The notes beneath the pieces were generated by a model that was not told the origin of the DNA, made no database searches, and saw only the letters and a list, made by a program, of their open reading frames with translations. From an uncultured SAR86 cluster bacterium (GTDB lineage: Bacteria > Pseudomonadota > Gammaproteobacteria > Magnimaribacterales > D2472), in contig CACPON010000006.1 in assembly GCA_902635645.1 (NCBI GenBank), positions 1-49,739 on the forward strand: a stretch of 49,739 bases of DNA. The letters are read 5' to 3'. Below, piece after piece: positions 24,207-25,710 of the stretch (within the stretch, counting starts at the first letter, position 1; the number at the start of each line of letters is the position of its first letter). The position numbers and the translations under genes were made by a program.

Positions 24207-24215
24207 ATTCCAGGC

Positions 24216-24438
24216 GAAAAAAAACAGAGACTAGCTCTGTTTCTTTAAGTTCGAGATCCTTAGGGGTCCTGAGTGAGATTCTCTCTGGCTCCTTGAGTTC
24301 TTTCTCTTGAACTCTTGGTGGGTTACTAAGCTCTTTTTTATCGTCGACTCTTAGCAACGCTTTCACCCTATGGGCTCTTCCTTCTTGACCTCTCTAACTC
24401 CCGTCTGCAGTTGATTGTTAGTCGGAATCAAGTTGGTC
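24216..24438 (-). ncRNA. Candidate structured small RNA of ~220 nt, family not recognised
   Basis: Non-coding gap with its own minus-strand promoter-like boxes (TTGACT 24471-24466, 16-bp spacer, TATATT 24449-24444), internal stems (24350-24358 with 24322-24330; 24295-24300 with 24309-24314) and a terminator hairpin followed by eight U. Noticeably more GC-rich than neighbouring spacers. Confidence 0.72.
24217..24242 (-). terminator. Rho-independent terminator (AAACAGAG-CTAGT-CTCTGTTT then U8 on the minus strand)
   Basis: 8-bp perfect stem 24222-24229 / 24235-24242; U-tract encoded by A(24217-24224). May also terminate oadB on the plus strand, more weakly. Confidence 0.82.
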
Positions 24439-24564
24439 TATTAAATATACTCTTCTTAAATTCTAAGTCAACACTTTATTTAAAAAAAATAATATTTTTT
24501 TATATTTATTTTTTAATTCTTAAAAATCAATACAATATATTTAATAATTATCAATAAAAAATAT

Positions 24565-25710
24565 ATGTTTTTACCAAAAATAGATCCATTAATTAACTAT
24601 AAAACTGAATCTAAATCGCTAGAAAGAATTACAGACATTGCATACCAACTACCTAAGCTATTATTAACAGGCAGGGTTCAAAGCACGATAAATAATTTAA
24701 AAACCAATGATCTTTCAGTACTGTCATTAATAAAGAATAATGACATGCGTGAAATAAGACTGGCTATGGTTCATTTAAGTTTTATATCACATGCTTATAT
24801 ATGGGGTGCCTCCACTCCATCAAAAACTCTTCCAGAAGTTCTTGCAAAACCGTGGGTAATTTTATCCAAAACTTTAGGAAGACCGCCCATATTAAGTTAT
24901 GCAAGTTATTGTCTTGATAATTGGTACAGGATAAATCCTAAAGAAAAAATTAGTTTAGAAAATGTTGGACTCATTACTAATTTTTTAGGAGGTGTTGATG
25001 AAGATTGGTTTGTAACAATTCATGTTTGCATAGAAAACGCTGCCACAGATGCTATTCATGCTGCATCAAAATTATCAAAATTAAATGAATCTGACCCTAT
25101 TTCAATATATTCAAAATACCTTGGAAAGATAATTACATCTTTAAGAGAAGTTAACTCCATATTTTCCAGGATGCCTGAAAAATGTGATCCATATGTTTAC
25201 TATCATAGAGTTAGGCCATTTATATTTGGTACAAAGGATAACCCAGATCTTAAAAAGGGATTGATATATAAAAATCAATATAACAATAAACCACAGTTTT
25301 TTAGAGGTGAAACAGGTGCGCAAAGCAGTATTATTCCATTTTTAGATGGATCTCTTGGCATCTATCATACTGAAGATCATTTAAGGCATTATTTAAATGA
25401 AATGAGAGATTATATGCCTCCACAACATAGAAAAATGATTGAGGATGTTGAATCAAGATCAAATGCTAAGTATTTCATCCATCAGTCTAAACGATTGACT
25501 AACCAATACAACAAATGTCTTGAGGAAATAAGAATATTTAGAGCACAACATTTAGAATTTGCTGCTACCTATATTCATAAACAATCTCAGATTAAAAACC
25601 CTTTTGGTAGAGGTGGTTCTACTATAACTGGAACTGGTGGTACTCCTTTTATGAAGTATCTAAAAAAACATAGGGATGAAACGCAAAAACAAAAAATTAA
25701 AAATCCTTAA
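24565..25710 (+). CDS. Indoleamine 2,3-dioxygenase (IDO) family heme protein
   Basis: FRGETGAQSSIIPFLDGSLGI, RAQHLEFAATYIHKQSQ and GTGGTPFMKYLKKHRDET match IDO/myoglobin-IDO family signatures. Confidence 0.85.
   Translation: MFLPKIDPLINYKTESKSLERITDIAYQLPKLLLTGRVQSTINNLKTNDLSVLSLIKNNDMREIRLAMVHLSFISHAYIWGASTPSKTLPEVLAKPWVILSKTLGRPPILSYASYCLDNWYRINPKEKISLENVGLITNFLGGVDEDWFVTIHVCIENAATDAIHAASKLSKLNESDPISIYSKYLGKIITSLREVNSIFSRMPEKCDPYVYYHRVRPFIFGTKDNPDLKKGLIYKNQYNNKPQFFRGETGAQSSIIPFLDGSLGIYHTEDHLRHYLNEMRDYMPPQHRKMIEDVESRSNAKYFIHQSKRLTNQYNKCLEEIRIFRAQHLEFAATYIHKQSQIKNPFGRGGSTITGTGGTPFMKYLKKHRDETQKQKIKNP

Follow-up and report, generated by a model that had tools for sequence, protein, structure and literature searches.

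Sequence analysis of an IMES-1 RNA gene of SAR86 bacteria predicts self-association through kissing loops

An intergenic RNA gene and its identity

The question raised by this locus was whether the gap at positions 24207-24564 of the window (the whole 49,739-nt stretch of DNA that we analysed) holds a genuine RNA gene and, if so, of what kind. The gap is flanked by genes for an OadB-type subunit and for indoleamine 2,3-dioxygenase. The initial annotation had seen no credible reading frame in it, and our ORF scan likewise found none of 60 aa or more. That annotation proposed instead an autonomous small RNA (sRNA) on the minus strand, running from ~24438 to ~24217, and regarded it as the best candidate for something undescribed.

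A cmscan search of the whole window matched positions 24240-24432 of the minus strand to IMES-1 (RF02034) over the complete model (1-191 of 191), with 198.2 bits and an E-value of 4e-45. The gathering cut-off for this family is 81 bits, and this was the sole match in the window above a gathering score. It is nearly certain that the RNA belongs to this already catalogued family. The Rfam comparison, which had been suggested as a check, thus contradicts the reading as an undescribed RNA (198 bits for IMES-1) and leaves that of a real sRNA standing. The window copy has the same helices as RF02034, and the copy itself shows no difference from it. To our knowledge, no mechanism is known for IMES-1, an orphan RNA class that was reportedly found by Weinberg et al. 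in 2009 to be highly abundant in ocean RNA.

The elements of the transcription unit are as follows.

24466-24471, minus strand: -35 element TTGACT; TTGAC is kept in nearly all copies of the window's family
24444-24449, minus strand: -10 element TATATT, at a spacing of 16 from the -35 element; sigma-70-like promoter
24240-24432, minus strand: IMES-1 RNA core, full-length RF02034 covariance match
24217-24241, minus strand: intrinsic terminator, hairpin followed by U8, from the sequence and a family terminator scan

Promoter, terminator stem and U8 (to 24217) all lie where they had first been described, and they recur among relatives. In what follows, f1 to f4 are codes for families of the order, and the window belongs to f1. 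A good promoter of the type TTGAC(N)-N16/17-TATATT preceded 95% of f1 copies vs 7.5% of shuffles (n = 78 copies with enough upstream sequence); the same scan gave no stand-out signal for f2 and f4 copies. Terminators were called downstream of 80/81 f1, 18/18 f2, and 16/16 f4 copies, and the lone f1 copy without a call has a run of N there. With promoter, terminator, and SAR86 hosts, the locus agrees with IMES-1 as a stand-alone gene in marine bacteria. Judged by these sequence features, it is a self-contained SAR86 gene for an IMES-1 RNA, equipped with a promoter and a terminator of its own. The proposal of an autonomous minus-strand sRNA is supported by these two elements together with the covarying fold described below.

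A divergent 6S RNA, which would bind RNA polymerase, has to be considered here, as 6S RNA (RF00013) is likewise stand-alone and of similar length. However, its fold differs, and no 6S covariance match was obtained at the IMES-1 locus. A canonical 6S RNA lies elsewhere in the same genome (G000:C2:73245-73418, 60.7 bits), and a separate 6S RNA is present in 142 of 151 relatives. We give this explanation practically no credence, and the initial annotation was right not to recognise 6S RNA in this gene.

IMES-1 scored above the cut-off in 121 of the 203 genomes of the order, in families f1, f2, and f4; many order genomes without it are incomplete, and f3 gave weak matches only. Within a class sample of 274 genomes, no IMES-1 was found outside the order. 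In a pattern scan of named genomes, SAR86 cluster bacteria were the hosts of the copies bearing the IMES-1 context, and chance matches of the short pattern fell elsewhere. The weak matches of 26-27 bits in G070 and G124:C5 did not hold up once aligned. A link to phages was also rejected: one IMG/VR contig (L153, 1-143, minus strand) has IMES-1 fused inside a phage portal gene and is probably an assembly chimera.

As a separate observation, the neighbouring gene for indoleamine 2,3-dioxygenase (PF01231, 287 bits; 24565-25710 of the window, plus strand) occurs here in a SAR86 genome, and many f1 genomes have it beside IMES-1 (cluster c0).

Covariation of the fold and of the P3 loop

The minus strand folds better than its shuffles (z = -2.64). 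When the Rfam structure was applied to 34 diverse copies, 86% of cells were paired, compared with 28-57% when it was slid by 1-3 columns, and changes on both sides were found in 30 of the 35 pairs in this alignment. The consensus helices of IMES-1 are thus backed by covariation, which is strong across the family copies. The helices and loops of the window copy are listed below.

24394-24421, minus strand: P2 hairpin, 24421-24417 with 24398-24394; covariation
24405-24410, minus strand: P2-loop palindrome CUGCAG in the 10-nt loop AACUGCAGAC (24412-24403); palindromic in 146/147 IMES-1 and IMES-5 copies
24367-24372, minus strand: 5' strand of a junction helix, pairs with 24259-24264; covariation
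24322-24358, minus strand: P3 hairpin, 24358-24350 with 24330-24322; 9/9 pairs changed on both sides, 95.6% of cells paired
24343-24348, minus strand: self-complementary hexamer GUCGAC of the P3 loop, with an A-rich stretch after it; 117/117 copies, 11 states; hold-out 26/26
24295-24314, minus strand: P4 hairpin, loop GAGA at 24306-24303; 99.4% of cells paired; loop proposed to kiss P5
24268-24288, minus strand: P5 hairpin, loop UCUC at 24278-24275; covariation; compensatory AAGA/UCUU in one relative
24259-24264, minus strand: 3' strand of the junction helix; covariation

Two hairpins of the initial annotation are found in this structure, namely the 9-bp stem of GUUGCUAAG (24358-24350) with CUUAGUAAC (24330-24322) and the GAGUUC/GAACUC hairpin (24314-24295). 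Its CCC-AUA-GGG mini-hairpin is doubtful, since it competes with the covarying junction helix 24372-24367/24264-24259 of the Rfam structure. Pairing in the 34-copy alignment was weak for P1 (43% of cells) and reached 71% for P2, and RNAalifold on alignment A2 left the P2 hairpin out.

The P4 loop GAGA is complementary to the P5 loop UCUC; the relative G048 has AAGA and UCUU instead. The equivalent loops of the RNA family IMES-5, which is treated below, read GGGU and ACCC, or AGGU and ACCU in one copy. The P4/P5 loop contact is probably intramolecular.

In the P3 loop, the hexamer just 5' of the A-rich stretch was self-complementary in all 117 copies despite occurring in 11 sequence states: GUCGAC (42 copies), GCUAGC (18), GUCGAU (17), GUUAAC (10), GCAUGC (9), GUAUAC (8), GUCGGC (6), GUUGAC (3), GGUACC (2), GUGCAU (1), and GCCGGC (1). 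Seven states are Watson-Crick palindromes and four are self-complementary through G-U pairs; the 27 of 117 hexamers that need G-U pairs would make a weaker contact. Nine copies that the regular expression missed or misplaced were assigned by eye. Hexamers at shifted offsets in the same loop were self-complementary in 0-7% of copies, with 27% at one offset. Among 56 distinct contexts, the pairs 1-6, 2-5, and 3-4 were 100% paired and had a covariation score of 0.845 vs 0.345 in shuffles. Both sides had changed in 21 and 25 of the 56 rows of alignment A4 at the column pairs 12-15 and 13-14, respectively.

On a tree built with both hexamers (P2 and P3) masked, at least 22 changes of state were counted for the P3 hexamer. 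When columns were simulated on this tree as independent of one another, self-complementarity averaged 42% over 400 runs and never exceeded 95%. The hexamer was discovered by inspection, so the first 117 copies are no independent test; the 26 hold-out copies, for which the prediction was fixed beforehand, are such a test, although they are kin of the first set, and all 26 were self-complementary, including a new state, GUGCGC (G-U). Another 6-nt partner for the hexamer within the RNA was absent in 111 of the 117 copies. Since adjacent bases of a single chain cannot pair with each other and such a partner is mostly lacking, the hexamer is most simply read as pairing from one molecule to another. 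Genomes with two copies number 21, and in every one of them the P3 hexamer of one copy can also pair with that of the other.

IMES-5, the P2 loop and the CsrA hypothesis

Weak IMES-1 matches over the full model in G092 and G119 (f3) and G130 (f2), at 30-34 bits, proved to be IMES-5 (RF02995, 124-126 bits). Matches to IMES-5 were confined to f2 and f3, with none in the window and none in f1. In nine f2 genomes, IMES-1 and IMES-5 lie ~13-14 kb apart on one contig and face each other. Like IMES-1, IMES-5 has a 5' hairpin with a 10-nt loop and a palindrome (CUCGAG in IMES-5), the segment GGGUGAAA, two hairpins with complementary loops, and a CCCCUUC/CUUCG end; unlike IMES-1, it is ~150 nt long, its P3 lacks a palindrome, and it does not occur in the window's family. 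Rfam lists no clan for either. The common loop, GGGUGAAA, the hairpin layout, and the 3' end suggest homology between the two families. Regarding their transcription units, a recognisable terminator is absent in 11/15 f2 IMES-5 copies (e.g., L259, L265) and present in 15/15 f3 copies.

The P2-loop hexamers, taken at Rfam coordinates, read CUGCAG in 98/98 f1 and f4 copies and CUCGAG in 19/19 f2 IMES-1 copies and 29/30 IMES-5 copies; the one broken palindrome among the 147 is CUAGAG in an IMES-5 copy (L272, G115). The closing pair of the 10-nt loop was standard in 65/65 distinct contexts, with 17 double changes, and the palindrome held in 24/24 readable hold-out copies. Summed stacking energies were -11.8 and -11.2 kcal/mol for the P2 palindromes, close to the -12.1 kcal/mol of the HIV-1 loop GUGCAC. 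However, the palindrome switched state only once on the tree, so that the P2 loop is weak evidence by itself. All f2 copies have an alternative 6-nt partner for this loop inside the RNA when G-U pairs are allowed. Pairing of the P2 loop with the 3' tail was rejected, as the tail CUCGA stays constant while the loop becomes CUGCAG and the pairing is not kept.

The initial annotation had also raised, as a weak possibility, a role as a sponge for CsrA (RsmA), like CsrB/RsmZ, from three AAGGA motifs. These motifs are present, IMES-1 has several GGA-containing segments, and its sister RNA IMES-5 occurs in the same two families as CsrA. However, profile searches found CsrA in no f1 or f4 genome, although IMES-1 is present in both families; CsrA is encoded in 36 f2/f3 genomes. 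Only about three GGA-like segments survive in the Rfam consensus, and by eye the GGA motifs of IMES-1 are few and mostly in junctions. We consider a CsrA sponge highly improbable, and the idea fails for the window, in whose family no genome has a recognisable CsrA.

IMES-5 and CsrA share their distribution: both occur in f2 and f3, and the searches gave neither in f1 or f4. This co-occurrence may reflect one loss event or a functional link with IMES-5 as a CsrA partner.

A predicted homo-oligomer and its alternatives

We predict that IMES-1 forms a homodimer or higher oligomer by loop-loop kissing, independently of Hfq, and regard this as likely. Two copies of the RNA would bind through a symmetric kissing contact between their P3 loops (GUCGAC in the window copy). 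The P2 loop (CUGCAG) would provide a second symmetric contact, of which we are less sure. The P4 and P5 loops would pair inside one molecule, and assembly would proceed without Hfq or ProQ. The self-complementary P3 and P2 loops are new here; neither they nor the P4/P5 loop contact appear in the Rfam structure line.

Related arrangements are known from other RNAs. Cryo-EM of OLE and GOLLD shows subunits touching at loops that alternate between palindromes, so that the switching there pointed to genuine contacts (PMC12286853). OLE, ROOL, and GOLLD resemble IMES-1 in their symmetric kissing loops, with palindromes that covary in OLE and GOLLD (PMC12286853); they differ in being much larger, in having other hosts, and in forming oligomers seen by cryo-EM, whereas IMES-1 is ~200 nt long and its oligomer is a prediction. 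IMES-1 nevertheless shares, at the sequence level, the feature of a homo-oligomeric RNA, namely symmetric loops with covarying self-complementarity. The apical loop of the HIV-1 dimerization initiation site carries a palindrome of six bases, which, as in IMES-1, is flanked by purines (PMC7357161). The RNA is unrelated, with GUGCAC there and CUGCAG or CUCGAG in the 10-nt loop of IMES-1. The term IMES is absent from PMC12286853, and IMES-1 was not named in the literature searched, a search that did not take in the founding papers.

If IMES-1 were instead monomeric, the P3 and P2 hexamers would bind another RNA or a protein whose binding requires a palindrome; alternatively, the palindrome would be a site at the DNA level. 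The hexamers do sit in exposed loops, and the oligomer is itself a prediction. However, binding to an unchanging target or to a sequence-specific protein would keep the sequence constant, whereas P3 has changed repeatedly with its self-complementarity kept. We therefore consider a monomer unlikely.

A conventional antisense sRNA that acts in trans, pairing its single strands with mRNAs, would fit the many conserved unpaired stretches of IMES-1. However, conservation lies in a compact fold and its loop contacts and not in one seed, and profile searches for two chaperones detected Hfq in 0/25 and ProQ in 0/25 SAR86 genomes, 24 of which are at least 90% complete (the window's own incomplete genome was outside this set). 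We judge the antisense reading to be about as improbable as the monomer. The absence of both proteins from the 25 genomes is in itself unusual for gammaproteobacteria.

As for the function of the proposed homo-oligomer, we offer a tentative guess, which is rather less than an even bet: it may be a scaffold or sequestering RNA that shows invariant purine-rich strands to a protein or ribonucleoprotein partner. The single strands on show would be AAGGAAGAG, AAGGAGC, and AAGAGAAAG. More doubtful still is the idea that two self-complementary loops (P2 and P3) could yield open chains or networks, an RNA-only polymer in SAR86, and not closed dimers; duplicate genes, which are often identical, would raise its dosage in many genomes.

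If the oligomer is real, natural homo-oligomeric bacterial RNAs are not confined to giant ornate classes. The prediction of a loop-loop homodimer names its bases, so that a single short RNA would suffice for a direct test in vitro. For IMES-1 itself, the analysis adds its placement in SAR86, the link to IMES-5, and the exclusion of the 6S, CsrA, Hfq, and ProQ routes.

In the two-copy genomes G082, G060, and G090, the block common to both copies begins near the -35 element and ends at the U tract (256-280 bp, 98-100% identity); G021 and G089 share less. A base-by-base comparison was possible for 17 pairs of copies sharing a genome, and 10 of these pairs are identical or differ at a single base.

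Where two copies lay within 20 kb on one contig, they were on the same strand in 17/17 cases, spaced 0.3-14 kb apart (G021, G030, G032, G039, G040, G042, G047, G049, G052, G054, G060, G064, G066, G072, G082, G089, and G090). Sugar and central-carbon genes lie between or beside the paired copies, and contig ends often fall in IMES-1. Such paired sites may act as a recombination site for gene cargo.
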